Shown here in pieces: positions 11,468-61,482 of a stretch of DNA of 64,000 nt. A program made the position numbers and the translations under genes. Numbering within the stretch: position 1 is the stretch's first letter; each line of letters opens with the position of its first letter. This DNA is from Hydrogenophilus sp. (lineage in GTDB: Bacteria; Pseudomonadota; Gammaproteobacteria; Burkholderiales; Thiobacillaceae), in contig DYFK01000013.1 in assembly GCA_020725265.1 (NCBI GenBank), positions 1 through 64,000 on the forward strand. The letters are read 5' to 3'. The notes beneath the pieces are model-generated. The model searched no databases. It saw only the letters and a list, made by a program, of their open reading frames with translations, and had not been told where the DNA came from.

Positions 11468-12778
11468 ATGGCCATCATCGATCGCCGCGAATTCCTGAAA
11501 GTTTCCGCCGGTGCCGCCAGCGCCGTCGCCGTGGGCGGCCTCGCCGGCTGCGCCACCACGCCCAACGCCGCTTCCGCCGGCGGCGCCCGTCCCAAGGTCG
11601 TCGTGGTCGGCGCCGGTTTCGGCGGCGCCACCTTCGCCCGCTACCTGAAGATGTGGTACCCGAAGGCGGAAGTCACCGTCATCGAGCCGAACGACAAGTT
11701 CGTGTCCTGCCCGTTCTCCAACACCGTCCTGGCCGGCATCAACAAGATGGATGACATCACGATGCCGTACGACAACATCAAGAAGGTCGTCGACAACTTC
11801 GTCAAGGACACCGTCACCGCCATCGACTCCGGCAAGAAGACGGTCACCACCAAGGGCGGCAAGACCTTCGCCTACGACAAGCTGGTGCTGGCTGGCGGCG
11901 TCGAACTGATGTTCGACAAGGTCGAGGGTTATAACGCCGAGGCGCAGAAGACCATCATGCACGCCTGGAAGGCCGGTCCGCAGACCGCCACCCTGCGCAA
12001 GCAACTGGAAGAGATGCCCGATGGCGGCACTTTCGTCATGTCGGTACCGATGGCCCCGTACCGCTGCCCGCCCGGCCCCTACGAGCGCGCCTGTCAGGTC
12101 GCCCATTACTTCAAGCAGGCCAAGCCCAAGTCCAAGATCATCATCCTGGACGGCAACCCGGACATCGCCTCCAAGAAGGGCTTGTTCCTGGCCGCCTGGA
12201 AGAAGCACTACGGCTACGACACCCCGAACAGCATGATCGAATATCGCGCCAACAACATGCCGCGCGCCGTCGACCCGAAGAAGATGATGGTCGGCACCGA
12301 GTTCGACGACGTGAAGGGTGACGTCATCAACGTCGTGCCGCCGATGCGCGCCGCCGAGATCACCGGCATGGCCGGCGTTCGTGATGGCAACAACGGCACC
12401 TGGTGCACCATCGACTACCGCACCTTCGAATCCAAGGTCGTGCCCAACGTCCACGTGCTCGGCGACTCCGCCCTGACCAACTTCCCGAAATCCGGTTCGG
12501 TGGCCAACAACACCGGCAAGATGTGCGCCTACGCGATCAGCGAGATGTTCAGTGGCCGCGCCGTCGACCCGGCGCCGGTGGTCACCAATACCTGCTACTC
12601 GGCCAGCTCCGACAGCACCGCCTTCCACGTGGCGACGGTGTTCCGCTGGAACGAGGAAAAGCAGTCCATGCTGCCGGAAAAGGGCGCCAACGGCGTTTCC
12701 AAGGAAGAAAGCGAACTCGAGTTCGCCTACATGGAAGCCTGGGCCAAGAACGTCTGGGCGGATACGCTGGGCCTGTAA
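11468..12778 (+). CDS. fccB: Flavocytochrome c sulfide dehydrogenase flavoprotein (locus 1)
   Basis: 436-residue FAD subunit that oxidises sulfide in the periplasm and passes electrons to its cytochrome partner. It carries a twin-arginine leader (DRREFLK, residues 5-11) and then a Cys in a lipobox-like GLAGC context. The Rossmann motif VVGAGFGG is near residues 46-53. Cys81 in the FVSCPFSN segment matches the cysteine that links FAD covalently in Allochromatium FccB. Cys200 in YRCPPGPYER and the Cys in GTWCTID match the redox-active pair. An AGGAGCAGACAAC ribosome site precedes the ATG. The C-terminus is longer and more acidic than in the two other copies. Likely substrate is sulfide, by family. 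Confidence 0.9.
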   Translation: MAIIDRREFLKVSAGAASAVAVGGLAGCATTPNAASAGGARPKVVVVGAGFGGATFARYLKMWYPKAEVTVIEPNDKFVSCPFSNTVLAGINKMDDITMPYDNIKKVVDNFVKDTVTAIDSGKKTVTTKGGKTFAYDKLVLAGGVELMFDKVEGYNAEAQKTIMHAWKAGPQTATLRKQLEEMPDGGTFVMSVPMAPYRCPPGPYERACQVAHYFKQAKPKSKIIILDGNPDIASKKGLFLAAWKKHYGYDTPNSMIEYRANNMPRAVDPKKMMVGTEFDDVKGDVINVVPPMRAAEITGMAGVRDGNNGTWCTIDYRTFESKVVPNVHVLGDSALTNFPKSGSVANNTGKMCAYAISEMFSGRAVDPAPVVTNTCYSASSDSTAFHVATVFRWNEEKQSMLPEKGANGVSKEESELEFAYMEAWAKNVWADTLGL

Positions 12779-45990: not shown

Positions 45991-47280
45991 ATGCCCATCT
46001 CCCGCCGAGAACTGCTCAAGGCGCTGGCCGCCGCCGGCGCCCTGCTGCCTACCGCCACCCTGGCCAAGCCGCGCGGCCGCGCCGGCCACGTCGTCATCAT
46101 CGGTGGCGGCATCGGCGGCGCCACCGCCGCCAAATACCTGCGCCTGGCCGCGCCGGCCGTCCGGATCACGCTGATCGAACCCGGCAATCGCTTCCTCACC
46201 TGCCTGCGCAGCAACGACGTCATGGTCGGGCACATGAAGCTCGACGACATCACCTTCACCTACGACGCGCTGCGCAGCCGCTACGGCATCGAAGTGATCC
46301 ACGATCGCTGCATCGGCTTCGATCCGAAGCGCAAGACCGTGCAGCTAGACCGGGGTGGCAAGCTCGGCTACGACAAGCTGATCGTGTCGCCCGGCATCGA
46401 CATGATCCATGGCGACGTCGAGGGCTATAACCGCGAGGTCGCGGAAAGCGTGATGCCGCACGGCTGGAAAGCCGGCGCGCAAACCCTGTTGCTGAAAAAG
46501 CAGCTGGAAGCCGTGCCGGCGGGCGGCACCTGGCTGATGGTGGCGCCACCGCTGCCCTACCGCTGTCCGCCCGGCCCCTACGAGCGCGCCTCGCTGGTGG
46601 CGGAGTGGTTCCAGCGGCACAACCCGACCGCCAAGGTGGTCATCCTCGATCCCAAGGACGCCTTCACCAAGGACGTGCCGTTCCGCAAGGCCTGGGAGCG
46701 TCTGTACGGCTACAACACGCCGAACTCGATGATCGAATGGATTCCCGCCGCGCAAGGCGGCAAGGTGCTGCGCGTCGATGCCGCCGCCGGGATCGTGCAT
46801 GCCCAGGCCGGCGCATTCCGGGCCGATGCCATCAACTACATTCCGCCCCAGCGCGCCGGCACGCTGGCCTTCCGGCTCGGCCTCACCAACCGCGACGGCT
46901 GGTGCCCGGTGAACCGGCGCACGTTCGAATCGGAAGTGGTGCGCGACGTCCACGTCATCGGCGATGCCAGCGTGGCCGACGCCATGCCCAAGTCCGGCTA
47001 CTCGGCCAACTCCCAGGCCAAGGTCGCCGCCCAGGCGGTGGCCGACATGCTGGCCGGACGGACGCCGGGCGAGCCGGCCATGATCAACGTCTGCTACAGC
47101 CTGGTCAGCCAGGACTACGGCATCTCCATCGCCGACATCTTCAAGGTCGTCGACAACCGCATCATCAAGCTGCCCGCGTCGGGCGTCTCGCCGATCACCG
47201 ATTCGCCGGCGCAACCGTTGCTGGAAGCCATCTACCAGCGCAACTGGCATCGCACTTTCGCCAATGACTGCTTCGCCTGA
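45991..47280 (+). CDS. fccB: Flavocytochrome c sulfide dehydrogenase flavoprotein (locus 2)
   Basis: 429-residue FAD subunit with twin-arginine leader (SRRELLK, residues 4-10). FAD-binding motif VVIIGGGIGG near 34-43. Cys71 in FLTCLRSN occupies the covalent-FAD position. Cys192 in YRCPPGPYER and the Cys of GWCPVN are the redox pair. The late HVIGDASVADAMPKSGYSANSQAK is the FAD-binding C-terminal segment of the family. GAGGAGACC ribosome site. It is closer in sequence to the locus 3 protein than to locus 1 by eye, including the C-terminus (TF-NDCFA/TFTEDCFA). Confidence 0.9.
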   Translation: MPISRRELLKALAAAGALLPTATLAKPRGRAGHVVIIGGGIGGATAAKYLRLAAPAVRITLIEPGNRFLTCLRSNDVMVGHMKLDDITFTYDALRSRYGIEVIHDRCIGFDPKRKTVQLDRGGKLGYDKLIVSPGIDMIHGDVEGYNREVAESVMPHGWKAGAQTLLLKKQLEAVPAGGTWLMVAPPLPYRCPPGPYERASLVAEWFQRHNPTAKVVILDPKDAFTKDVPFRKAWERLYGYNTPNSMIEWIPAAQGGKVLRVDAAAGIVHAQAGAFRADAINYIPPQRAGTLAFRLGLTNRDGWCPVNRRTFESEVVRDVHVIGDASVADAMPKSGYSANSQAKVAAQAVADMLAGRTPGEPAMINVCYSLVSQDYGISIADIFKVVDNRIIKLPASGVSPITDSPAQPLLEAIYQRNWHRTFANDCFA

Positions 47281-47286
47281 CCGAAC

Positions 47287-48015
47287 ATGAAAAAAACCTG
47301 CCTTGCCCTTACCCTCGCCACCCTCCTGTGCGGCGGCGCCGCCGTCGCCGGCAACAGCGCCCGGACCAACGCCATGCCCGAGTGGGACAGCGACCAGCTC
47401 GAACAGATCCTGACCCGTGCCAACACCGGCAACCCGGTGGAAGGCGAACGCCTGCACCATTACCTGTATTGCTCGGCCTGTCATGGCCACGACGGCAACT
47501 CGCCATCGCGCAACTGGCCAAGCCTGACCGGCCAGAAGCCGGACTACGTCATGAAGACGCTGCTCGACTACCGTCAGGACATGCGCCGCGACCATTACCG
47601 GAAAGCCGAGGTCATGACGCGCATGACCCGCTTGCTGGACGAGACCCAGATGGCCGATCTGGCCGCCTACTACGCCAGCCGGCCGGCGCCGGTGGTGCCA
47701 CCGCAGACCAAGCCGTTACTCGCGAAAAAAGGTGCCCGGCTGGCGCGTGACGGCGACGGCAAGCGCGGCATCGCCGCCTGTTCCGGCTGCCATGGCGAAC
47801 ATGGCGAATCCGGCATCACGCCGGACACCCCGGCGCTGGCCGGGCAAACACCGGAATACTTCATCCTGGCCATGAAGATGTATCGCGACGGCATGCGCAC
47901 TTCCGATCTCGGCGGCGTCATGCGCATGTTCGCGAAACCTCTGACCGACGCGGAAATCGAGGCGCTCGCCCACTATTACGCCAGCCTGGGCAGCAAACGC
48001 GAGGCGATGCGCTAG
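47287..48015 (+). CDS. Diheme cytochrome c (c4-like), locus 2
   Basis: 242-residue periplasmic protein with signal peptide MKKTCLALTLATLLCGGAAVAG and two c-type heme sites (CSACHGH and CSGCHGE), each followed by the SLTGQ/ALAGQ segment typical of cytochrome c4 halves. Candidate axial Met residues lie in the MTRMTRL and MRMFAK segments. It lies 6 bp after fccB2 and probably accepts electrons from the FccAB complex. Its stop codon shares a CTAG with the convergent radical SAM gene. The paralog at 55778 has the same layout, but with a repeat in its leader. Confidence 0.88.
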   Translation: MKKTCLALTLATLLCGGAAVAGNSARTNAMPEWDSDQLEQILTRANTGNPVEGERLHHYLYCSACHGHDGNSPSRNWPSLTGQKPDYVMKTLLDYRQDMRRDHYRKAEVMTRMTRLLDETQMADLAAYYASRPAPVVPPQTKPLLAKKGARLARDGDGKRGIAACSGCHGEHGESGITPDTPALAGQTPEYFILAMKMYRDGMRTSDLGGVMRMFAKPLTDAEIEALAHYYASLGSKREAMR

Positions 48016-49960
48016 CGCCTGCCGGCGCCGCCGACGCGCTGACCGAGCGCCCGTTCGATGAAGTCGCGCGGCACCCGGGCGCGCGGCACCCGGTCCTCGA
48101 ACCAGCCGCGCACGTCGTCGTCCAGGCCAAGGCCGTGCATGTAGTTGTATAGCGCCTTGTTCAGGGCGACGCCGAGCGCGTCGTGATCGACGCCGGTGGG
48201 GTCGGTGAACGGCACGTCGTTCTTCGCGAAGGTGATGGCCGGCAACGGCTTCAGCGTGATGCCGTAATGCGCGGGGTCGAGGCCGACCGGGGAATGCGCG
48301 GTGCAGGCGAAGCGATGGAAGAAGCCGGACTGGATGCAGCCGGCGGCGAACAGTTGGCGCACGTATTCGAGGGCGTCCACCGTGTCCTGCGCGGTCTGGG
48401 TCGGGAAACCGTACATCAGGTAGGCGTGGACCAGGATGCCGGCCTCGGTGAAGGCGTGGGTGACGCGCGCGACCTGCTCCACCGACACGCCCTTGTTCAT
48501 CAGCTTGAGCAGGCGGTCCGAGGCGACCTCGAGGCCGCCCGACACGGCGATGCAGCCGCTGTCGGCGAGCTGCTGGCAGAGTTCCGGCGTGAACGACTTC
48601 TCGAAGCGGATGTTGCCCCACCAGGAGATGGCGCGGTTGCGCCGTTGCAGCTCCTCGGCCATGGCCTTGAGCGCCTTCGGCGGCGCGGCTTCGTCGACGA
48701 AGTGGAAGCCGGTCTGGCCGGTTTCGGCGATCACCGCCTCGATGCGGTCGACCAGCAGTTCGGCCGAGGCGGCCTCGTAGCGGGCGATGTAGTCCAGGCT
48801 GACATCGCAGAAACTGCATTTCTTCCAATAGCAGCCGTGGGCGACGGTGAGCTTGTTCCAGCGCGCGTCCGACCACAGCCGGTGCATGGGATTGAGCATG
48901 TCGAGGACGCCGAGATAACGGTCCAGTGGCAGACCGTCCCAGGTCGGCGTGCCCACCTCGGCGAAGGGGATGTCCGGCTCGCCACAATCGATGTAGCGCG
49001 CCACGCCGGCCTCGCGCAGGAAAGTCCGCGCCAGTCGATCAACCGGCCGTTCCCCTCGCAGGTGCTCCAACAACGCCAACACCGGCCGTTCGCCATCGTC
49101 CAGCGTCACATAATCGAAAAAGTCGAACACGCGCGGCTCCGCCAGCTCGCGCAATTCAGTGTTGACGTAACCGCCGCCGAGCACGGTGACCACGTCCGGG
49201 CGCGCGGCCTTGATCGCCCGGGCGATGCGGAAGGCGCCATAGACCGAGCCCGGGAACGGCACCGAGACCAGCACCACGTCCGGCGCGTGGCGGTCGAGCG
49301 CGGCCACGGTCAGTTCGCGCAGCGTGGCGTCGACCAGGGTTTCCGGCGCCGCCAGCGCCTCGGCCAGCGGCGCGAAGGTCGGCTGGCTCAGAGCCAGCGA
49401 CTCGGCGTAGCGGACGAATTCGAAACGCTCGTCGACCGCCTCGCGCAGCACGTCGGCGAGATCGTTCAGGTACAGGGTGGCGAAGTGGCGCGCGCGATCA
49501 TGCGTGCCCAGCGCGCCGAATGCCCAGGCCAGCGGATCGCCGCCGTCCGGGTCGTAGTAGACGTCGAGGGATTCGAAACGCGCGCCTTCCGGCAGGAAAT
49601 GCCGGCCGGCGATACGGTGCGCCATGCTCGGGTCGCGTCCTTGCAGGAAAGCGACGGCGGCATCGACGCTGGCCAGATGGCGGTGGAATTCGCGCAGGAA
49701 CGCCTTGGTCCGTCGGCCGCGCCGCTTGCCCGGAATCGCCTCGATGGCGGCGCGCATCGCCCGCAAACCGTCCGCCGAGAACAGCTTCAGCACCAGCGCC
49801 AGCGCCAGATCCTCCTGCGCCGCGTCGATGCCACGCGAACGCAGGAAACCGGTCAGGTAGGCGGTGGACGGATACGGGACATTGAGCTGCGTCATCGGCG
49901 GGATGACGGCCAGGACGCGCGGGGTCATCGGCATCCGTCGTTCAACCGAGGATTCGAGGT

Positions 49961-49964
<4 letters not shown>
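48012..49964 (-). CDS. B12-binding domain radical SAM protein
   Basis: 650-residue protein. The N-terminal half includes a cobalamin-binding-like Rossmann region (VVLVSVPFPGSVYGAFRIARAIKAARP, VTVLGGGYVNTEL). The radical SAM domain (about 330-560) has the cluster motif GCYWKKCSFC, which is Cys-x4-Cys-x2-Cys rather than the common Cys-x3-Cys-x2-Cys; such GCYW forms occur in one radical SAM subgroup. Later parts include GGLEVASDRLLKLMNKG and LMYGFPTQT. The start at 49964 overlaps the sigma-54 regulator stop (ATGA); an ATG at 49928 is an alternative. Substrate unknown. Coupling to the activator suggests a role linked to the divergent operon. Confidence 0.85.
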
Positions 49965-51256
<1,292 letters not shown>

Positions 51257-51283
51257 GGCGACACGGCAGGCCTTCGCCGGAAC

Positions 51284-51297
51284 TGTCAATATTGACA
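51284..51297. promoter_or_regulatory. Perfect palindrome, candidate activator-binding site
   Basis: TGTCAATATTGACA is a 14-bp perfect palindrome. Half-sites GTCAA recur nearby (51316, 51325 region, 51360), making a cluster about 60-140 bp upstream of the -24/-12 element. This is the usual place for an enhancer-binding protein. Confidence 0.7.
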
Positions 51298-51423
51298 ACA
51301 ATATTCGACAAAACCGTCAATTACGTCAACACCCTCGATGAAAAACCCGGGGACCACCCGGTCAACATATTTTTTGTTAATTTTATCAACAAGTTGCCAT
51401 AAAAACATAACCATTGTTGGATA

Positions 51424-51484: not shown

Positions 51485-52900
51485 ATGGATTATGTCGGCC
51501 TCTATCCCGTCTGGTACGAACCGGGCATCGGCAGCGGCTGGATCGTCGGCCTCATCGCCACGGTCCACGTGCTGTTCTCCCACACCGCCGTGGGCGCGGC
51601 CCTCTTCTTCGCGTACCTGGCCCACACGGCCTACCGGCGCGACCAGCCGGAACTGCTGGACTTCATCAAGCGGTACGGCCTGTTCCTGCTGGTATTCAGC
51701 TATGTGCTGGGCTCCATCACCGGGCCGGGCATCTGGTACTCCACCACGGTGGCCAGCCCCCGGGGCATCTCGGCCCTGATCCACAGCTTCGTGTGGAAGT
51801 GGGCGACGGAATGGGTGTTCTTCGTCATCGAGGTGGTGGGGGTCTACATGATCATCTACCTGGTGGGCAAGGTGGACCGCGCCACCCACCTGCGCATCTC
51901 GGTGATCTTCGGCCTGGCCTCCTACGGCACCATGCTCATCATCATCGGCATCCTGTCCTTCATGATGTGGCCGGGCAAACCGGAGTGGTTCACCGAAGGC
52001 GGCTATCTCAACGGCTTCTACGGCGCCAACACCTTCGCCCAGCTGGCCCTGCGCACCGCCTTCATGTTCACCATGACCGCCGTGGTGGGGGGCATCGTCG
52101 CCGGGGCCATCAAGGACACGGCCTTCAAGCGGGAGATCACCCGCAAGCTGGCCCTGCTGGGCATGGCATCGGCGGTGATCGGCGGCCTGTTGTTCCAGTG
52201 GTACATGGCCACGCTGCCGGAAACCGCCGAGGTCATCGCCCAGAACCGGCTGCCGGAATGGTTCAGCCTGTCCCTGGTGGTGGCCTTGTCGGTGATCTTC
52301 GCCTGGTTCGCCGCCACCTGGTTACGGCCCGGCCTGCTCACCCCGGCCCTGGCTTCGGCCATGACCCTGGTGGTGCTGGTGTTCGGCCTGTGGCCCGAGG
52401 AAACCGCCCGGGAATCCCTGCGCAAGCCGTACGTGGCGGGTCAGTACGTGTATTCCAACCAGGTCATCGCCCGGGATGTGCCGGGGCTGGGCATCCGCTC
52501 GGAGATTCCGCTGCTGGAACGCCAGGGCTTCCAGCACAGCCAGGTGTTCGTGCCGCAGCGCCTGAAGACGGTGACGGCGGAGAACGCCGCCGAGGTGGGC
52601 CACAGCCTGGCCCTGACCACCTGCTCCAACTGTCATTCCCTGTCTGATACGGGCATGCGGCCCCTGGCCGGGTACTTCGGCGGCAATCGGGACGTGGCGG
52701 AGATCCAGGTCTATCTGCAAGGGGCCCTGGTTACGGGCAACACCCTCTACATGCCCCACATCCCCCTCAATGACGCCGAGGCCTTTGCCCTGGCCAGCTT
52801 CATCGCCGGCATGAACCGGACCTCGCCGCTGCATCCGGAACCGCGCCGGGTGGCCGTCAACGCCACGGCCGCGACCCCTGTCACCCAATCTCAGGAGTAA
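51485..52900 (+). CDS. Cytochrome bd-superfamily-like subunit I with C-terminal heme c
   Basis: 471-residue membrane protein. About eight helices fill residues 15-305. Helix regions LIATVHVLFSHTAVGAALFF, SYVLGSITGPGIWY and ALIHSFVWKWATEWVFFVIEVVGVYMI resemble CydA-type quinol oxidase subunit I, with His28, His33, His100 and Glu109/Glu116 as candidate heme ligands or proton-path residues. A soluble domain after residue 365 carries CSNCH (380-384), and LYMPHIP (Met423) offers an axial Met, so a c-type heme is fused to the C-terminus. The Q-loop of canonical CydA is not seen. Heme-c-bearing bd relatives are known from genome surveys, but their function is not established. First gene of the sigma-54 operon. 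Confidence 0.75.
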   Translation: MDYVGLYPVWYEPGIGSGWIVGLIATVHVLFSHTAVGAALFFAYLAHTAYRRDQPELLDFIKRYGLFLLVFSYVLGSITGPGIWYSTTVASPRGISALIHSFVWKWATEWVFFVIEVVGVYMIIYLVGKVDRATHLRISVIFGLASYGTMLIIIGILSFMMWPGKPEWFTEGGYLNGFYGANTFAQLALRTAFMFTMTAVVGGIVAGAIKDTAFKREITRKLALLGMASAVIGGLLFQWYMATLPETAEVIAQNRLPEWFSLSLVVALSVIFAWFAATWLRPGLLTPALASAMTLVVLVFGLWPEETARESLRKPYVAGQYVYSNQVIARDVPGLGIRSEIPLLERQGFQHSQVFVPQRLKTVTAENAAEVGHSLALTTCSNCHSLSDTGMRPLAGYFGGNRDVAEIQVYLQGALVTGNTLYMPHIPLNDAEAFALASFIAGMNRTSPLHPEPRRVAVNATAATPVTQSQE

Positions 52901-52903
52901 GCC

Positions 52904-54139
52904 ATGGAAGCCGCCATGCTCCAAGCCCTGCGGGACCCCGCCGGGGTGCCCTCCCACCCGGTGATCTTCCTGGTGCTGGGGGTGCTCACCTGGGCCCTGC
53001 ACATCGCCGCCGTGCAGGTCATGCTGGGGGCCTCCGCCCTCACCCTGTTCGGCGCCTTCAAACAGGACGCCCACTGGCGCCGGCTGGCCGCCGCCATGCT
53101 GAACACCGCCAAGGTGGCGGTGTCCGTGGCCATCGTCCTGGGGGTGGCGCCCCTGCTGTTCGTGCAGGTGATCTACGACCCCTTCTGGTACACCAGCAAC
53201 GTGCTGTCCGCCCGCTGGGTCATCGCCTTCATCGTCCTGCTGATCGGCGGCTACCTGGCCCTGTACGCCTTCTACTACCGCAACCCGGACATGCGCGCGG
53301 CATCGACCCGGGGTGCCTGGCATCTGGTGCTGTCCATCGTCCTGATGTTGGTGGTGGGCTGGATCATGCACGTGCTGAGCGTGCAGATGCTGCTGCCGGA
53401 GCAGTGGATGCAGTGGTACGCGCCGGCAGGCCACATCGACCCCTCGGGCCAGCAGCTGCACGCCTACCACCCGGCCCGCTTCGCCTTCTTCATCCTGCTG
53501 TCCGGCGCGGTGACCGGCCTGTGGCTGCTGGGCTACCGGCGCTACCTGATGGGCCGGGAGGATGGTCACCCCGCAGAGGATCCGACCTATATCGCCTGGC
53601 TCAAGCCCCTGGCCCTGAACCTGGCCCTGGCGGGGGGCGTGCTGGCCCTGGCCGCCGGCGCCGTGTGGATGCTGAGCCTGCCGGAGAAGATGGCCTGGTT
53701 CGCCACCTCCGCCTGGATGGGGGCCGCCCTGGTGGCCCTGCTGGCGGCGGTGAGCTTTCCCCGACTGCTGGGGGCCCGCCTCGATACGGGCCTGTGGGGC
53801 TACGCCCCCTTCGCCCTGGGGGCCGTGGCCCTGATCGTCGTGGCCGCCGCCCGGGAGGCCCTGCGCTTTATCACCCTGCTGGCAGCCCATGGCTACGACG
53901 CCCTGGACTACAAGCTCAACCTGGACTGGTACAGCACCGTGCTGTTCTTCGTCACCTTCGCGGTGCTGGGGGGCGTGGTGCTGGGCTACCTGCTCACCGT
54001 GGCCTGGAAAGCCGGCCAGACCAAGGGCGTCTATGTCCCCTCCCCGGGACTGACCCGGCTGGGCCAGGTGGGCGTGCTGCTGCTGGTGGTGTGGATCGTG
54101 CAGTACTTTGCCGTGGGGTTCTACGTATGGGCGCGCTGA
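52904..54139 (+). CDS. Polytopic membrane partner subunit of the oxidase-like complex
   Basis: 411-residue protein with about nine or ten hydrophobic helices and no CxxCH. Conserved-looking features: a first helix region FLVLGVLTWALHIAAVQVMLGAS with His, SVQMLLPEQWMQWYAP, a HPARFAFFILLSGAVTGLWLLGYRRYL segment, and late DYKLNLDWYSTVLFFVTFAVLGG. It lies 3 bp after the subunit I gene with an AGGAGTAAGCC site, so they are surely co-translated. By position it would be the second subunit, analogous to CydB, but sequence similarity is not obvious to me. A new quinol- or cytochrome-reactive subunit is possible. Confidence 0.7.
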   Translation: MEAAMLQALRDPAGVPSHPVIFLVLGVLTWALHIAAVQVMLGASALTLFGAFKQDAHWRRLAAAMLNTAKVAVSVAIVLGVAPLLFVQVIYDPFWYTSNVLSARWVIAFIVLLIGGYLALYAFYYRNPDMRAASTRGAWHLVLSIVLMLVVGWIMHVLSVQMLLPEQWMQWYAPAGHIDPSGQQLHAYHPARFAFFILLSGAVTGLWLLGYRRYLMGREDGHPAEDPTYIAWLKPLALNLALAGGVLALAAGAVWMLSLPEKMAWFATSAWMGAALVALLAAVSFPRLLGARLDTGLWGYAPFALGAVALIVVAAAREALRFITLLAAHGYDALDYKLNLDWYSTVLFFVTFAVLGGVVLGYLLTVAWKAGQTKGVYVPSPGLTRLGQVGVLLLVVWIVQYFAVGFYVWAR

Positions 54140-54444
54140 TGAAACCGATGATTGGGGCCGTGCTCATCGCGGTCGCCGTGGCCTGGCTGACACCCGCCCA
54201 GGCCGCTGGACAGCCTTCCGGCTCCGCCATGGCCCATACCTGCGCCGGCTGCCACGGCACCCAGGGCCGGCTGGGCACGGTGGAATTCGTGCCACTGGCG
54301 GGCCTGCCGGAGCGGGAATTCCTCAAGGCCATGGGTGATTTCCGCAGCGGCAAGCGGGCCGCCACCCTCATGGGCCACGTGGCCCGGGGCTTTTCCGACG
54401 ACGAACTCAAGGCCATGGCGCGGTATTTCGCCACGATGAAATGA
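54139..54444 (+). CDS. fccA: Monoheme cytochrome c subunit of flavocytochrome c (locus 3)
   Basis: 101-residue periplasmic cytochrome with signal peptide (MIGAVLIAVAVAWLTPAQA) and one heme site CAGCH. The FRSGKRAATLMGHVARGFSDDELKAMARYFA end matches the paralogs at 11151 and 45659, and gives a candidate axial Met. The ATG shares bases with the preceding stop (TGATG), and its stop overlaps the next ATG, so it is translationally coupled on both sides. Confidence 0.86.
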   Translation: MKPMIGAVLIAVAVAWLTPAQAAGQPSGSAMAHTCAGCHGTQGRLGTVEFVPLAGLPEREFLKAMGDFRSGKRAATLMGHVARGFSDDELKAMARYFATMK

Positions 54445-55781
54445 AGAGAAAACAGATGAATCGACGTCAATTCCTGCAAGCCGGCGCCGGCCTGGCCCTG
54501 GCTTCGGCCCTGCCTGGGCGGGCAGCGCAAGCTTCAGCCCAAGTGGTGATCATCGGCGGCGGCGTGGGGGGCGCCACGGCGGCCAAGTACCTGAAGCTGG
54601 CCAACCCGGCCCTGAAGGTGACGATCATCGAGACCAACCGTACCTACATCCGCCCCTACGGTTCCAGCGAGGTGCTGACGGGCCACGCCCGCATGGAAGA
54701 CCTGACGGTGTCCTACGACGCCCTGCACCACCGCTACGGCGTGGACTTCCTGTTCGACACCGTGACAGGCTTCGACCCGGACAAAAAACAGGTGCGCACC
54801 GCCGGCCGGCAGTCCCTGGCCTACGACAAGCTCATCGTCAGCCCCGGCATCCGCCTGGACTACGCGGCGATCCCCGGCTACAGCCAGGCCATCGCCGACA
54901 CGCGCATTCCCTCCGGCTGGATCCCCGGTCCCCAGACCGCCCTGCTGGCCAGGCAGCTCCAGGCCATGAAACCCGGAGGCACCTTCGTCATCGTCGCCCC
55001 GCCCACCCCCTACCGCTGCCCCCCCGGCCCCTACGAGCGGGCCGCCCTGGTGACGGAGTGGATGCGCCGCCACAACCCCACGGGCAAGGTCCTCATCCTG
55101 GACCCCAAGGACAACTTCGTCACCGACGCCACCATGCAACTGGGCTGGCACCGGCTGTACGGCTACGACATCCCCGCCGACTTCATGCAGGACATGCCGG
55201 CAGGGGTACAGAACACCGGCCGCCCCGCCCCCATCGCCTGGGTCCGCGCCAAGGATGGCGGCACGACCCGCGGGATCGACGCCCGCAGCCTCACGGTGCA
55301 CACCGAAGGCGGGCCCGTGCAAGCCGACGTGCTCAACGTCATCCCGCCCATGCGTGCCGGCAAGCTGGCCTTCGACCTGGGGCTGACCAACGAAACCGGC
55401 TGGTGCCCGGTGGAGCGCCGTACGTTCGAATCCAGCGTCCACGCGGATGTGTACGTGATCGGCGATGCCAGCATTGCCGACGCCATGCCCAAGTCCGGCT
55501 TTTCCGCCAACACCCAGGCCAAGGTCACCGCCCAGGCCATCGTCGATACCCTGGCCGGCCGGGCCCCGGCGGAACCCGTGTGGGGCAACACCTGCTACGC
55601 CCTGGCGGGGTCGGACTACGGCCTGTTCGTGGCGGACGTGTTCCGCCTGAAGGGCGGCAAGATCACCCAGGTCTCCGGCAAGCGCTACCTGCCCCTGGAT
55701 GCCAGCCCCACCCAGATCCGCCTGGGGGCCGTCTACCAGCAAGCCTGGCTGAAAACCTTCACGGAGGATTGCTTCGCATGA
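54441..55781 (+). CDS. fccB: Flavocytochrome c flavoprotein, third copy, lacking the FAD-linking Cys
   Basis: 446-residue paralog of the copies at 11468 and 45991. Twin-arginine leader NRRQFLQ; FAD motif VVIIGGGVGG. In the copies at loci 1 and 2 the cysteine in FVSCPFSN and FLTCLRSN is the covalent FAD position; here the segment reads TYIRPYGSSEVL with no cysteine, and no other Cys occurs before YRCPPGPYER. The redox pair (YRCPPG and GWCPVE) remains. FAD would thus be non-covalent or the substrate changed. Start 54441 overlaps fccA3 (ATGA); 54456 is an internal alternative. Co-operonic with the oxidase-like subunits. Confidence 0.9.
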   Translation: MKRKQMNRRQFLQAGAGLALASALPGRAAQASAQVVIIGGGVGGATAAKYLKLANPALKVTIIETNRTYIRPYGSSEVLTGHARMEDLTVSYDALHHRYGVDFLFDTVTGFDPDKKQVRTAGRQSLAYDKLIVSPGIRLDYAAIPGYSQAIADTRIPSGWIPGPQTALLARQLQAMKPGGTFVIVAPPTPYRCPPGPYERAALVTEWMRRHNPTGKVLILDPKDNFVTDATMQLGWHRLYGYDIPADFMQDMPAGVQNTGRPAPIAWVRAKDGGTTRGIDARSLTVHTEGGPVQADVLNVIPPMRAGKLAFDLGLTNETGWCPVERRTFESSVHADVYVIGDASIADAMPKSGFSANTQAKVTAQAIVDTLAGRAPAEPVWGNTCYALAGSDYGLFVADVFRLKGGKITQVSGKRYLPLDASPTQIRLGAVYQQAWLKTFTEDCFA

Positions 55782-56581
55782 AATCCAAACCATTCCCTGG
55801 CCTATCCACCGCGCCGTCATTCCCGCGCGGGCGGGAATCCGGCCTGCTCTGGGCACCCGCCCACGCTGGCGCGACGGTACTACTGGTCGCCGGCCTGCTG
55901 TTCGCCCAGTCGGCCTTCGCCATGCCAACCGCTTCCCGGACCACCAGCCTGGGACCGGCCGAACTCCGCGCCACCCTGGCCAGCATGCCCAAGGGCGATG
56001 CCGCACGGGGCGCGATCCTGCACCGGAGCCACATGTGCGCCAGCTGCCACGGCGATGACGGCGTCGCCCCCACCGGCAACTGGGCCAGCCTGGCGGGCCA
56101 GAAGGCCGCATACACCTACAAGAGCCTGCTCGATTACCAGACCGGCCGTCGCCTGGAACACGGCCGCGCCAACCTGATGCGGGTGGCGGTGCAGGTCCTG
56201 AGCCGCCAGGACATGGCCGATCTGGCAACCTACCTCGCCGATCTGCCGGCGGTGGCCGCGCCCGTGCCTGAATCCTCGCCGCAAACCGCCAAGGCCGCCG
56301 AATTGCTGGTCCGGCGCGGAGATCCCACGCGCCTGATGACGCCCTGCGCGTCCTGCCACGGCGCTCGTGGCCAGGGTGGCGTCAACGCCACGCCGGCGCT
56401 GGCCGGGCAGACCGTGGGTGCCTTCACCCGCGCCATGCTGGATTACCGGGAAGGCCGCCGCGTCAGCGACGCCCATGAAGGCATGCGTCAGTTCAGCAGG
56501 CGCCTGAGCCTGGAGGAAATCGACGCCCTCGCGATTCATTACGCCCGCCTGGGCAAACGCCGGGAAGGCGCACAGCCATGA
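55778..56581 (+). CDS. Diheme cytochrome c (locus 3) with a repeat in its signal peptide
   Basis: 267-residue paralog of the cytochrome at 47287, with heme sites CASCHGDDG and CASCHGARG and candidate Met ligands. The N-terminus reads MKSKPFPGLSTAPSFPRG, then GRES...PAHAGAT, before a hydrophobic core VLLVAGLLFAQSAFA. The inserted part is the translation of a palindromic genome repeat (55815-55876). The extension makes a leader of about 47 residues. The ATG overlaps the fccB3 stop (ATGA) and the stop overlaps the next ATG. Export should still work because the hydrophobic core and AFA cleavage site remain (inference). Confidence 0.85.
   Translation: MKSKPFPGLSTAPSFPRGRESGLLWAPAHAGATVLLVAGLLFAQSAFAMPTASRTTSLGPAELRATLASMPKGDAARGAILHRSHMCASCHGDDGVAPTGNWASLAGQKAAYTYKSLLDYQTGRRLEHGRANLMRVAVQVLSRQDMADLATYLADLPAVAAPVPESSPQTAKAAELLVRRGDPTRLMTPCASCHGARGQGGVNATPALAGQTVGAFTRAMLDYREGRRVSDAHEGMRQFSRRLSLEEIDALAIHYARLGKRREGAQP
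55815..55876. repeat. Palindromic GTCATTCCCGC-type repeat inside a leader sequence
   Basis: CGTCATTCCCGCG with GCGGGAATCC (55815-55840) forms an inverted repeat; 55853-55876 is a degenerate inverted second part (CCACGCTGGCGCGACGG). It belongs to the same family as the perfect palindrome at 26047. It lies in frame within the cytochrome signal peptide. Confidence 0.75.
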
Positions 56582-57036
56582 AAATCGCCGTCGCCAGCCA
56601 GAATCGCAAGACCGTCACCGGCCATGCCGGCAAGTGCCGACGTTTCTGGATCTATGACATCGCCAGCGGCCGCGCGGGCGCGCGCGTCCTGCTGGAACTC
56701 CCGCGTGAACAAAGCCTGCACGCCGGCGGACACGACGCTCCGCATCCACTCGACGGGGTCGACGCGCTGATCTGCGCGGGCCTGGGCGAAGGCTTGCTGG
56801 CCCGCCTGCGACGACGTGGCATCCACGCGGTCGCCACGCCGGAATCCGATCCCGATCGCGCGGTGGCCGCCTGGTTGGCCGGCACCCTCGAAGAGCTGCC
56901 CGCGCATGCCCAGGGTCATGACCATGCCCATGGACATGGCCACCACCATGAGCCCACCATCCCGGCGGGTCCGGCCTTGACCGTGGTCTCGGTCGAGCAG
57001 CTGTTCTCCAACCAATTCCAGGAGCCGCAACGATGA
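56578..57036 (+). CDS. NifX/NifB-like iron-molybdenum cofactor family protein with His-rich tail
   Basis: 152-residue protein of the Nitro_FeMo-Co superfamily: MKIAVASQNRKTVTGHAGKCRRFWIYDI start, GVDALICAGLGEGLLARLRRRGI core. The C-terminus has a His-rich stretch, HDHAHGHGHHHEP, probably metal-binding. No nif genes are nearby. Stand-alone members may handle iron-sulfur or metal clusters. Both ends overlap neighbouring genes by four bases, so it is coupled to the cytochrome and to the DUF2141 gene. Confidence 0.78.
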   Translation: MKIAVASQNRKTVTGHAGKCRRFWIYDIASGRAGARVLLELPREQSLHAGGHDAPHPLDGVDALICAGLGEGLLARLRRRGIHAVATPESDPDRAVAAWLAGTLEELPAHAQGHDHAHGHGHHHEPTIPAGPALTVVSVEQLFSNQFQEPQR

Positions 57037-58323: not shown

Positions 58324-58839
58324 ATGAACCCCCGACGCCTGTCCACGCCCTTCCTGTCCATCCTGACCCTCTCCGCCACGCTGCTGGCCATGCCGGCCTC
58401 GGCCCAGGCAGCGGCCGAACCCGGCGATGCCCGCGCCATCGTCGTCGAGGACGTCAGCCGCGCGCCGTTCGACGATACCCTGCGCGTGCTCAAGGATCAG
58501 CTCGCGGCCGATGGCTGGAATCTGGTCGCGGAAATCAACCTGGGCCGCAATCTGGCCAAGCGCAACGTCGAGATTCCCGGCGGCCTGGTCATCCTGGAAC
58601 TGACCAGCGGCGGCGACACCATCCCGCTGCTGCGCGACGAATCCACCCGTTACATCTCCGCGCTGATGCCCTGCACCGTTTCCGTCTACGGCACGAGCGA
58701 CGGCCGCGTGATGATCTCGCGCATCAACGCCCACAGCCTGTCGGCGATGCTGGAGCCGCGCGCCGCCGAGGCGATGCGCCGCTCCGCCGCCCGCCTGGAC
58801 GCGAGCGTCGAACGCGCGCTGGCCAGGCTGCCGAAGTAA
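58324..58839 (+). CDS. DUF302 secreted protein A
   Basis: 171-residue protein with signal peptide (to about residue 30, ASAQAAAE) and a DUF302 domain: APFDDTLRVLKDQLAADGWNLVAEINLGRNLAKRNVEIPGGLVILELTSGG, then a SALMPCTVSVYGTSDGRVMISRIN segment. DUF302 proteins occur with sulfur and metal stress genes; function is not established. A second DUF302 protein without signal peptide is at 60468. It lies 14 bp before the SQR-like gene. Confidence 0.8.
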   Translation: MNPRRLSTPFLSILTLSATLLAMPASAQAAAEPGDARAIVVEDVSRAPFDDTLRVLKDQLAADGWNLVAEINLGRNLAKRNVEIPGGLVILELTSGGDTIPLLRDESTRYISALMPCTVSVYGTSDGRVMISRINAHSLSAMLEPRAAEAMRRSAARLDASVERALARLPK

Positions 58840-58853
58840 GCGGGCGGCGTCTC

Positions 58854-59990
58854 ATGTCCACGCCCCGCATCGTCATCCTCGGCGCCGGCTTCGCCGCCCT
58901 CACCGCCGCGCGCGAACTGCGCAAGCGCGCGCCGGCCGCGCGCATCACGCTGGTCGCGCCGAAGGCCGAATTCGTCTATCTGCCCAGCCTGATCTGGATT
59001 CCGTCCGGCCTGCGCCAGGGCAGCGACCTGGTGTTGCCGCTGGACCGCTTCCTGCGCGACCACGACATCGAATTCGTCGCCGGCCGGGTCACCGGCCTGA
59101 ACGACGGCGGCCGGGTGGTGCTGACCGATGGCGGCGAGATCGCCAACGACGCCCTGCTGATCGCCACCGGCGGCCGCTTCATCCGGAAGCTGCCGGGCAT
59201 CGAGCACGCCCTGACCCTGTGCGAGGGCGTCGCCTCGGCGGAAGCCATCCGCGACCGGGTCGACGCCATGCGCTCCGGTCGCATCGCGCTCGGCTTCGGC
59301 GGCAACCCGAACGAACCGTCGGCGATGCGCGGCGGACCGATGTTCGAACTGCTGTTCGGACTGGATACCCACCTGCGCCGGACCGGCCGGCGCGAGCGCA
59401 TCGAACTGACCTTCTTCAACGCCGCCGCCGAGCCGGGCAAGCGTCTGGGCGAGAAGGCGGTATCCGGACTGCTGGCGGAAATGGCGCGCCGACGCATCGA
59501 CACCCACCTCGGCCACAAGCCGATCGGATTTTCCGAGCGCGGCGTCGACACCGAGGGCGGCCACGTCAATGCCGACCTGATCCTGTTCATGCCCGGCCTG
59601 ACCGGGCCCGACTGGGCGCCGGCAGCGGGCCTGCCGCTGTCGCCGGGCGGTTTCTTCCAGGCCGACGAATTCTGCCGGGTGACCGGCGCCGACAAGGTGT
59701 TCGTGGCCGGCGACGCCGGCAGCTTCCCAGGCCCGGACTGGCTGCCCAAACAGGCGCACATGGCCGACCTGCAAGCGCGAGCGGCGGCGGAAAACCTGCT
59801 CGGCGCGCTGGCCGGCCGACCGCCGACCGCGAGGCCGAAGATCGAACTGATCTGCATCGTCGACACCGTCGACCAGGGCATCCTGGTCTACCGCGATCTC
59901 AAGCGTTCCTTCCTGCTGCCGTCCTCGCGCCTGTTCCATTGGGCCAAGCGCTATTTCGAGCGGCATTACCTGCGCGCATTCCGCGCGTGA
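58854..59990 (+). CDS. SQR-like FAD-dependent oxidoreductase
   Basis: 378-residue flavoprotein of the sulfide:quinone oxidoreductase/NADH dehydrogenase fold. N-terminal Rossmann IVILGAGFAALTAAREL, second motif IALGFGGNPNEPSAM, and C-terminal KVFVAGDAGSFPGPDWLPKQAHMADLQA. Candidate functional Cys occur in LTLCEG and in IELICIVDT; the three-Cys pattern of classical SQR is incomplete, so activity is uncertain. No signal peptide. It probably works at the cytoplasmic membrane surface. It is part of the DUF302-SQR-like run. Confidence 0.82.
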   Translation: MSTPRIVILGAGFAALTAARELRKRAPAARITLVAPKAEFVYLPSLIWIPSGLRQGSDLVLPLDRFLRDHDIEFVAGRVTGLNDGGRVVLTDGGEIANDALLIATGGRFIRKLPGIEHALTLCEGVASAEAIRDRVDAMRSGRIALGFGGNPNEPSAMRGGPMFELLFGLDTHLRRTGRRERIELTFFNAAAEPGKRLGEKAVSGLLAEMARRRIDTHLGHKPIGFSERGVDTEGGHVNADLILFMPGLTGPDWAPAAGLPLSPGGFFQADEFCRVTGADKVFVAGDAGSFPGPDWLPKQAHMADLQARAAAENLLGALAGRPPTARPKIELICIVDTVDQGILVYRDLKRSFLLPSSRLFHWAKRYFERHYLRAFRA

Positions 59991-60028
59991 CGGCAGTAAA
60001 ATCAGCAAGTTCTAATATTCCGGACGCC

Positions 60029-60445
60029 ATGAACATCCTCACGCACTACCAGCGCATCGGCGGCGAAACCAAGGTCCGCGAACTGGTCGACCGCTTCTAC
60101 GACCACATGGACGAACTGCCCGAGGTCTGGGACATCCGTAAGCTGCACGCGACCGACCTGTCCGGCTCGCGCCAGAAGCTGTTCGATTTCCTGTCCGGCT
60201 GGATGGGCGGACCGCCGCTCTATACCGACAAGCACGGCCACCCGATGCTGCGCCGTCGTCACCTGCCGTTCCCGATCGGCGACCAGGAACGCGACCAGTG
60301 GTTGCACTGCATGAAGCTGGCGCTGGACGAGGTGGTCACGGACGAGAAACTGAAAACCGAGCTGTGGCTGGCCTTCGTCAAGGTCGCCGACCACATGCGC
60401 AACCAGGCGGCATCCGCCACGCCTCCCCATCCTCATCCCCATTGA
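60029..60445 (+). CDS. Truncated hemoglobin, group II
   Basis: 138-residue protein of the group II (TrHbO) family. The proximal His is in the FPIGDQERDQWLHCMKLAL region, and the distal-site residues lie in LFDFLSGWMGGPPLYTDKHGHPMLRRRHLPF. It binds O2 or NO and may detoxify NO or deliver O2. The C-terminus ends PHPHPH. It lies 38 bp after the SQR-like gene. Confidence 0.9.
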   Translation: MNILTHYQRIGGETKVRELVDRFYDHMDELPEVWDIRKLHATDLSGSRQKLFDFLSGWMGGPPLYTDKHGHPMLRRRHLPFPIGDQERDQWLHCMKLALDEVVTDEKLKTELWLAFVKVADHMRNQAASATPPHPHPH

Positions 60446-60467
60446 TCCACATCGAAAAGGAATTCCC

Positions 60468-60857
60468 ATGTACGCGCACACCGTCGAACTCGATCTGCCC
60501 ATCGACCAGGCCATCGAAAAACTCAAGGCCGTGCTGACCGACGCCAAGATGGGCGTGGTCTCCGAAGTCAATGTCCAGGCGATCATGAAAGCCAAGCTCG
60601 ACCACGACATGCCGCCCTACCGCCTGCTCGGCATCTGCGCCGCCGGCATCGCCAGGCGCGTGCTCGAAGCCGACCGCGACGCCGGCGCGCTGCTGCCGTG
60701 CGGCTGCTGCGCCTACGAAGTCGCGCCCGGCCGCACCCGCTTCGCGCTCCAGGATCCGGCCGGCATCGCCACGCTGTCCGGCAACGCCGACATCGCCGCG
60801 ATCATGGCCGAGGCGCAAACCCACCTAGCCGGCGTGCTCGCCACGCTGCGCGGCTGA
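60468..60857 (+). CDS. DUF302 protein B (cytoplasmic)
   Basis: 129-residue protein matching DUF302 without a signal peptide: YAHTVELDLPIDQAIEKLKAVLTDAKMGVVSEVN and PYRLLGICAAGIARRVLEADRDAGALLPCGCCAYEV. The CGCC segment is a possible metal site. An AAAGGAATTCCC site precedes the ATG. It lies in the same run as the truncated hemoglobin and the rhodanese. Confidence 0.82.
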   Translation: MYAHTVELDLPIDQAIEKLKAVLTDAKMGVVSEVNVQAIMKAKLDHDMPPYRLLGICAAGIARRVLEADRDAGALLPCGCCAYEVAPGRTRFALQDPAGIATLSGNADIAAIMAEAQTHLAGVLATLRG

Positions 60858-60870
60858 AAAGGACGGGGCC

Positions 60871-61482
60871 ATGACCACTTCTCGTCGCCTCTCCCCGTTC
60901 GCTGCGCTGTCCGGCCTGTTTCTGCTGTTCGCGCTGATCGCCGCGCCCGCGCGCGCGGTCGACCCCGCCAGCCTGGCCAAGATCAAGGTGACCAAGCTGG
61001 GGCTCTATCTGGAAGCCAAGGACGTACCCGCCTTCCTCGACCGGCACGGCCGCGACAAGGTGCTGTTCCTCGATCTGCGCACGCCGGAGGAGCAACTGTT
61101 CGTCGGCGTGCCGGACGGCATCGATGGCGCGGTGCCGTTCGGCATCATGCATTACGACAAGTGGGACGACGCCAAGAACACCTATGTGCGCAATCCCAAT
61201 CCGGACTTCCTGTCCCAGTTCGAACTGCGCGCGATGGACAAGGATACCGACAAGGGAGATCCCATCCTGCTCATCTGCCGTTCCGGCGACCGCAGCGCGC
61301 TCGGCGCCGACTTCCTGGCCCGACATGGCTACACCAACGTCTGGTCGGTGGTCGACGGCTTCGAGGGCGACACGGCCAAGGACGGCCCCGGCAAGGGCAA
61401 GCGCGTGGTCAACGGCTGGAAGAACGCCGGCCTGCCCTGGAGCTACCAGTTGGACAAGGCGAAAGCGCACATCGCCAAGTAA
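60871..61482 (+). CDS. Secreted rhodanese-like sulfurtransferase
   Basis: 203-residue periplasmic protein: signal peptide (LSGLFLLFALIAAPARAV) and one rhodanese domain with VLFLDLRTPEEQLFVGVPDGIDGAVPF and the active-site loop CRSGDRSALGADFLARHGY (Cys nucleophile). By family it carries persulfide sulfur. The region 61487-61510 after the stop holds a GC hairpin without T-run. It is plausibly part of a sulfide-handling group. Confidence 0.88.
   Translation: MTTSRRLSPFAALSGLFLLFALIAAPARAVDPASLAKIKVTKLGLYLEAKDVPAFLDRHGRDKVLFLDLRTPEEQLFVGVPDGIDGAVPFGIMHYDKWDDAKNTYVRNPNPDFLSQFELRAMDKDTDKGDPILLICRSGDRSALGADFLARHGYTNVWSVVDGFEGDTAKDGPGKGKRVVNGWKNAGLPWSYQLDKAKAHIAK

Follow-up and report, generated by a model that had tools for sequence, protein, structure and literature searches.

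The third FccB-type flavoprotein gene in the window, by which we mean the whole 64,000-nucleotide stretch of DNA analyzed here, encodes a protein (herein copy 3) that lacks the cysteine linking FAD in flavocytochrome c. Comparison with its relatives indicates that Cys-less copy 3 represents a whole lineage of FccB variants, and that another such case arose independently elsewhere; loss of the FAD-linking Cys in FccB, as traced through these sequences, is inherited across many species and goes back to at least two independent events. Copy 3 is best explained, with a probability of roughly 0.7, as a functional FCSD-type flavoprotein from a lineage that acquired an R-x-YG-S loop, lost the Cys once, and would hold its FAD non-covalently.

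Copy 3 (54441..55781, + strand; 446 aa) was identified from Pfam, PDB matches, and an AF2 model. It carries a Tat signal (RR at residues 8 and 9; Pfam TAT_signal match) and matches FCSD_central (3.9e-37) and FCSD-flav_bind (3.2e-17), both above the cut-off. Its phmmer matches to 1FCD, 5N1T, and 3VRD have E values of 2e-105 to 1e-102, with 44 to 45% identity to these three solved flavocytochrome c flavoproteins; the best SQR structure gives 1e-16, and identification of copy 3 as an SQR was rejected on these scores. The phmmer alignment sets N-x-x-Y-x-x-C-Y-L-S-N-E-V of 1FCD against N-R-T-Y-I-R-P-Y-G-S-S-E-V of copy 3 with no gap, and counting along it places Pro72 at Cys42 of Allochromatium vinosum 1FCD, the FAD-linking site. 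All three solved proteins have Cys in this column, in the phmmer and in the profile alignment alike. The R-P-Y-G-S-S-E motif (residues 71 through 77; 54651..54671, +), defined by the gapless alignment to 1FCD and by residue counts in 79 sequences, thus replaces [TS]-C-x-x-S-N; RPYGSSEV starts at 54651, with Arg71 at 54651-54653 and Pro72 at 54654-54656 (codons CGC CCC).

An earlier note on this DNA had described copy 3 as having no Cys before YRCPPG and had proposed an alignment with characterized FccB, which could have placed another Cys at the site. The description holds, and so does the gapless alignment: the protein's only cysteines are residues 193, 322, 385, and 444, so none lies upstream of YRCPPG, and a check of all of them found no replacement near the FAD site. 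Copies 1 and 2 keep the Cys, as the same note had stated, in SCPFSN (at 11705) of copy 1 (11480..12778, +), a distant paralog, and in TCLRSN (at 46198) of copy 2 (45991..47280, +), which falls in the group sister to the lineage described below. The designation "third FccB" is right for the window and not for the genome, where two further full-length FccB-like genes are present on contigs C32 and C28. The C32 paralog (L004:1495-2772) keeps the FAD-linking Cys (SCPMSN) and is alone among 79 sequences in having Ser at column 385, with GRCVSGPYER around the first redox Cys.

The redox-active pair, claimed to be kept in copy 3, is indeed retained. Counting along the alignment to 1FCD identifies it as Cys193 (55017..55019, +) and Cys385 (55593..55595, +), equivalent to A. 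vinosum Cys161 and Cys337, which we take to be the redox-active pair of FccB; both are present in 29/29 sequences of the group to which copy 3 belongs. Cys322, also widely conserved, is a third Cys outside the pair and was ruled out as the second redox Cys by the mapping on 1FCD, which gives Cys385. Glu64, located where the second strand ends and presumably a ligand of the FAD ribose, is Glu in 24 of the 29 sequences, Gln in 3, and Asp in 2; with Gln in three members, tighter non-covalent binding is not favored there. Glu199, Lys351, and Trp436 are invariant in all 29, and Thr384 is present in 27. Trp436 corresponds to A. vinosum Trp391 in the proposed flavin-to-heme path, the residues of which were taken from PMC12010331 (where the printed Thr and Trp numbers appear to be swapped). 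Copy 3 has Phe at the Tyr306 position of the electron path, one at which the group is mixed (Tyr 18, Phe 10, Ala 1); this weighs against our preferred explanation.

The AF2 model of copy 3 (mean pLDDT 93.7) matches 5N1T, 3VRD, and 1FCD with Z scores of 59.2, 58.3, and 56.0 and rmsd values of 1.2, 1.4, and 1.5 Å, respectively; the best SQR row reaches a Z of 38.8 at 3.0 Å. With a model near three FCSDs and a position nested among Cys-bearing FccB, copy 3 is an FccB by fold and descent, and an FccA-type gene, another mark of FccB whether mono- or diheme, adjoins it at 54136-54444. The FAD-linking Cys, itself a mark of FccB, is Pro72 in copy 3, and for this reason we class the protein as a descendant or variant of FccB and not as a typical member. 

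Relatives were gathered by a scan of genome contigs (7 loci) and by protein searches at several ranks (61 genomes of the family, 300 of the order, 369 of the class, 41, 27, and 1 of further groups, and 299 of the phylum), with at most the best 30 loci read from each protein search. In the family search 43 of 61 genomes matched, and one locus from each of the best 30 was read. The search for the same substitution elsewhere, which the earlier note had also proposed, was productive. Among 79 distinct family sequences read, 51 have Cys at the FAD column, a type that is under-represented because only the best 30 of the 43 matching family genomes were read, and 28 lack it (Pro 17, His 5, Arg 3, Gly 2, Ser 1), these being counts of sequences and not of events because two rows, L049 and L050, are nearly identical. 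The five His-bearing sequences (the RH lineage) all fall in one sub-clade.

Arg71, Tyr73, and Gly74 occur in 29 sequences (herein the R-x-YGS group), comprising all 28 Cys-less ones and the Cys-bearing L053 (RCYGSNE); 27 of the 29 also have Ser76. In the other 47 of the 76 sequences compared, the Arg71 column holds Thr, Ser, or Ala. The same 29 sequences carry an insertion at about residues 245 through 262 (55173..55226, +), found by column comparison, whose core columns 250 and 255 hold no residue in the FccB compared with them, 5 from the sister group and 42 others. Named members include Thiobacillus denitrificans UBA4768, two Hydrogenophilales, Thiothrix caldifontis, and T. lacustris. Plasmid matches comprised 54 records, all below 60% identity. 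Three genomes contain a second R-x-YGS paralog (L080, L081, and L082; RR), with Arg at the FAD site, Gln for Glu64, and a long branch; no membrane genes are in view at these three loci, one of which is at a contig end.

In a tree of 76 rows, the 28 Cys-less sequences form one branch (support 100/99), L053 adjoins this branch at a node that is not firm (91/66), and the copy-2 type is sister to both. A tree of 83 rows returns the same arrangement, with support of 100/99 for the 28 Cys-less rows and 93/74 once L053 is added, and again with the copy-2 type as sister. L053 is thus probably basal to the Cys-less clade, and on the simplest reading of these sequences the loop would first have become R-C-Y-G-S-N, followed by a single loss of the Cys and then by drift at the position.

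A phylum-wide test of uniqueness, in which 398 genomes were searched with PF09242, the C-terminal domain, produced 95 matches. In 28 of the best 30 of these 95 loci, a sample that gives no phylum-wide frequencies, the FAD column was readable, with Cys in 19 and Gly in 9. The nine Gly sequences (L152, L158, L161, L162, L168-L171, and L177) all belong to family f252 and have the loop SGPLSN, and the 83-row tree (100/99) separates this Cys-to-Gly loss from that of the R-x-YGS group. The f252 proteins resemble the group in having lost the FAD-linking Cys while keeping the redox pair and differ from it in their independent origin, their SGPLSN loop, and the absence of Arg71. A diheme FccA-like gene precedes FccB at 4/4 of the f252 loci read, and a gene like the first membrane gene of the copy 3 module (below) is found at 0/4 (L184 is a short contig).

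Among the literature listings examined, at the level of titles and opening lines of abstracts, we found no report of an FccB without the FAD-linking Cys; the classification of Sousa et al. 2018 may mention it. Passages in two Thiothrix genome papers (PMC8570282, PMC10532065) note fccAB only as present, and PMC12010331 describes the thioether Cys as conserved and covalent FAD as a feature of flavocytochrome c. The same paper states that the first Rossmann domain of FccB holds FAD non-covalently and that the thioether is additional, so loss of the Cys need not abolish FAD binding. The earlier note had suggested non-covalent FAD, an altered redox potential, or another substrate, and its interpretation is partly supported. 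Non-covalent FAD is the best-supported of these consequences, as 28 sequences with conserved fold and redox cysteines have Pro, Gly, Ser, Arg, or His at the site, and most likely the FAD of R-x-YGS enzymes is bound in this manner. Sulfide oxidation is most likely retained by copy 3. In several other flavoenzymes, variants without their covalent bond have lower potentials (PMC4148704), and by analogy the FAD potential is expected to be changed, and lower, in copy 3.

Four other explanations were weighed. Neutral drift, by which a dispensable covalent bond was lost without functional consequence, is possible, and we consider it the most serious of the four while still thinking it unlikely. It would fit with at least two independent losses, with the subsequent variation of the site (Pro, His, Arg, Gly, Ser), and with the S-x-P-L-S-N frame retained in the Gly lineage, but the R-x-YGS loop also gained Arg71, Tyr73, and Gly74 in 29/29 sequences and Ser76 in 27/29, together with the insertion, and this exceeds drift at one site. 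Slightly more doubtful is the proposal that loss of the Cys marks a change of substrate, to polysulfide, persulfide, a thiol, or another donor, and not only of flavin attachment. The presence of several FccB paralogs in one genome leaves room for such specialization, and the insertion and Arg71 are peculiar to the R-x-YGS group; all 29 sequences nevertheless keep the two redox cysteines, Glu199, and Lys351 unaltered.

That FAD is still covalently attached, through the invariant Tyr73 (8α-O-tyrosyl) or, in the RH lineage only, through the His at the site (8α-N-histidyl), seems improbable. A covalent bond can form without Cys, whose absence is no proof against one, and FAD attached through a histidyl or, rarely, a tyrosyl link is known (PMC4148704). 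Tyr fills the Tyr73 column in 29/29 of the R-x-YGS group, compared with 0/5 of the sister group and 5/42 other FccB, and the His at the site, present in 5/79 sequences, is confined to one sub-clade. A. vinosum FccB, however, has Tyr at the same column beside its intact Cys, so Tyr73 need not bind flavin; moreover, 23 of the 28 Cys-less sequences have Pro, Gly, Ser, or Arg at the site, and residues adjacent to it in an extended loop should face away from the flavin. A sequencing error, as the earlier note had allowed for, an assembly error, or a decaying gene can be dismissed, since the reading frame is open, the same Cys-less motif recurs in 28 sequences of many genomes, and dN/dS among seven members is 0.10 to 0.28 in 19 of 21 pairs (several with saturated dS, the other two uncomputable); a frameshift in copy 3 was rejected on the same grounds.

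Copy 3 lies in a module of five genes that abut or overlap. The first (51485..52900, +; the ORF opens at 51338 and the start was set by homology) encodes a membrane protein with a C-terminal CxxCH heme c motif, and the second (52904..54139, +) a multi-helix membrane partner with no assigned family, for which Pfam gave nothing above the cut-off (DUF2231 scored E 8e-4, below it). A monoheme, FccA-like cytochrome c gene (54136..54444, +; Pfam Cytochrom_C), whose product resembles PDB cytochrome c4 and the FccA of 3VRD, 1FCD, and 5N1T, overlaps the start of the FccB gene (54441-55781), and a diheme, c4-like cytochrome c gene (55778..56581, +) overlaps its stop. Counting relatives no more than 6 kb away on the same strand, the monoheme gene is near FccB at 29/29 R-x-YGS loci, the diheme gene at 24/29, the first membrane gene at 23/29, and both membrane genes at 21/29. 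The first membrane gene is absent nearby at six loci, four with open flanks (L069, L070, L081, L082) and two near contig ends (L073, L080). The neighborhood is clearly conserved within the R-x-YGS group, unlike in the set of a Thioalkalivibrio paper, which reports that genes around fccAB are not conserved in diverse sulfur oxidizers (PMC6382920).

Among the 369 class genomes, 9 have the first membrane gene and 15 a close FccB (E up to 1e-105). Where the FccB is of the R-x-YGS or copy-2-like type, the membrane gene occurs in 5/5 genomes, compared with 0/10 genomes that have other Cys types alone (Fisher p 0.0003, a descriptive value, as the groups were set post hoc and the genomes are related). 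Two of the remaining four genomes with the membrane gene, G542 and G646, have a Cys-bearing FccB, and the other two, G486 and G484, have no FccB in the stretch read. Since the FccB of G542 and G646 fall in the same super-clade of the 83-row tree (36 rows, 100/100), the membrane module is probably older than the loss of the Cys. Within the family, 7 of the 61 genomes have the membrane gene, including all 3 in which an R-x-YGS protein is the best FccB. Strict coupling of Cys loss to the membrane module was rejected, as the module also accompanies Cys-bearing FccB (L055, L056, L139, L140). In two of these (L139:10271-11578 and L140:10338-11642), the Cys-bearing FccB lies inside the module; Phe precedes its Cys (FCPGSN), and column 322, that of the third conserved Cys, holds Val. 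The membrane gene is found without FccB in the stretch read at L141, L142, L143, and L144, the stretches of L143 and L144 being nearly whole short contigs; L141 pairs it with a diheme cytochrome, and the partner gene of L142 has two CxxCH motifs.

The protein encoded at 51485-52900 has several predicted membrane segments, and H28, H33, H100, E109, E116, and C380-C383-H384 are conserved. A weak signal for cytochrome c was all that Pfam gave above chance. In a Foldseek search with its model, the 12 best rows were bd oxidase chains (E 0.01 to 0.45, none below 0.001), with TM scores of at most 0.55 from a model with a pLDDT of only 65.7. PF01654 (Cyt_bd_oxida_I) matches neither this protein nor G000 and scores E 4.6e-6 and 6.3e-4 on the relatives L124 and L126, both below the cut-off; hhalign profile-profile comparison with the bd family gave a probability of 0.5%, a result that is against a relation or uninformative. 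The protein (herein bd-like) may be distantly related to cytochrome bd subunit I, or to the bd superfamily. According to PMC13189123 and PMC10839748, the quinol site of this superfamily is carried by qOR enzymes, and OR-N enzymes presumably use cytochrome c.

In the mechanism that we propose for the R-x-YGS enzymes, the lineage would have exchanged the [TS]C..SN loop for R-x-YG-S, with one loss of the FAD-linking Cys, and FAD would be retained by the Rossmann fold alone; Arg71 and Tyr73 may, speculatively, compensate by packing near the flavin edge. Copy 3 would be exported via Tat, and Cys193 and Cys385 with FAD would oxidize sulfide or close sulfur species. By way of Trp436, electrons would then reach the monoheme cytochrome, whose gene immediately precedes that of FccB; from this point the diheme cytochrome would take part in carrying them, probably to the heme c domain of the co-encoded membrane pair. 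A bolder version, which we offer tentatively, is that the R-x-YGS protein may form the catalytic arm of a membrane-attached complex distinct from soluble FCSD and SQR, in which an exchangeable FAD of lower potential would pass electrons through mono- and diheme cytochromes and a bd-superfamily heme c membrane pair to quinone or oxygen, the flavin anchor having been released after recruitment of the module. The 6 of 29 loci without a nearby bd-like gene and the weakness of the bd relation count against the mechanism proposed above.

Other genes surround the module. The end of the diheme cytochrome gene is overlapped by 56578-57036, which encodes a dinitrogenase iron-molybdenum cofactor (NifX-like) domain protein with a relative in L014 at 1582-1995 on the other strand. 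Between copies 2 and 3, on the - strand at 48012-51301, are genes for a sigma-54-dependent-looking regulator and a radical-SAM-like protein (named by eye), which seem to travel with copy 2, as relatives flank the copy-2-type FccB in L092 (both) and L093 (the regulator). Further on, 58324-61482 encodes a DUF302-like protein (below the cut-off), a Pyr_redox_2-type FAD oxidoreductase (58854-59990), and a rhodanese-domain protein, relatives of which are all near the copy-2-type FccB in L092. A Pfam scan of ten other window ORFs found little, and several are evidently not genes.

If covalent FAD is dispensable in two lineages, the FAD-linking Cys is unfit for recognizing flavocytochrome c. Nature would also have provided a series in which a single frame carries Cys, Pro, Gly, His, Ser, or Arg and a Cys-bearing member stands at the base. 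Such a series offers a direct test of the purpose of the covalent flavin bond, for which copy 2, from the same genome, is a built-in control. The conserved tie to a membrane heme c protein suggests an unrecognized route for sulfide electrons in sulfur oxidizers of the Thiobacillus and Thiothrix types.

Among known systems, SQR (human 6OI5 and others) shares the fold of copy 3 (Z 38.8, 3.0 Å), and human SQR has no Cys at the FAD site; identity is 18%, and copy 3 differs in having the FCSD-flav_bind C-terminal domain and an adjoining cytochrome c gene. In the HMM alignment, human SQR, the sole SQR aligned, has Gln at the FAD column and Pro one residue later, and equivalence of that Pro to Pro72 was rejected because Gln occupies the column. 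The copy 2 group (L020, L021, L055, and L056, with L139 and L140 in the 83-row tree) is sister to the R-x-YGS group and keeps the Cys. The membrane module of copy 3 is found again at the loci of L055, L056 (= L090, L091), L139, and L140; those of L020 and L021 (= L092, L093), unlike that of copy 3, have no adjoining bd-like gene. In the Hydrogenophilus genome itself, the sole bd-like gene adjoins copy 3 and is separated from copy 2 by genes on the opposite strand. The FccB of the solved FCSDs (A. vinosum 1FCD, Thermochromatium tepidum 3VRD, and T. paradoxus 5N1T) share with copy 3 the fold, the redox pair, the Pfam FCSD domains, and an adjoining FccA-type cytochrome c gene. Copy 3 departs from them in the replacement of the FAD-linking Cys by Pro within an R-P-Y-G-S-S loop, in the insertion at residues 245 through 262, and in belonging to a module with a membrane pair.
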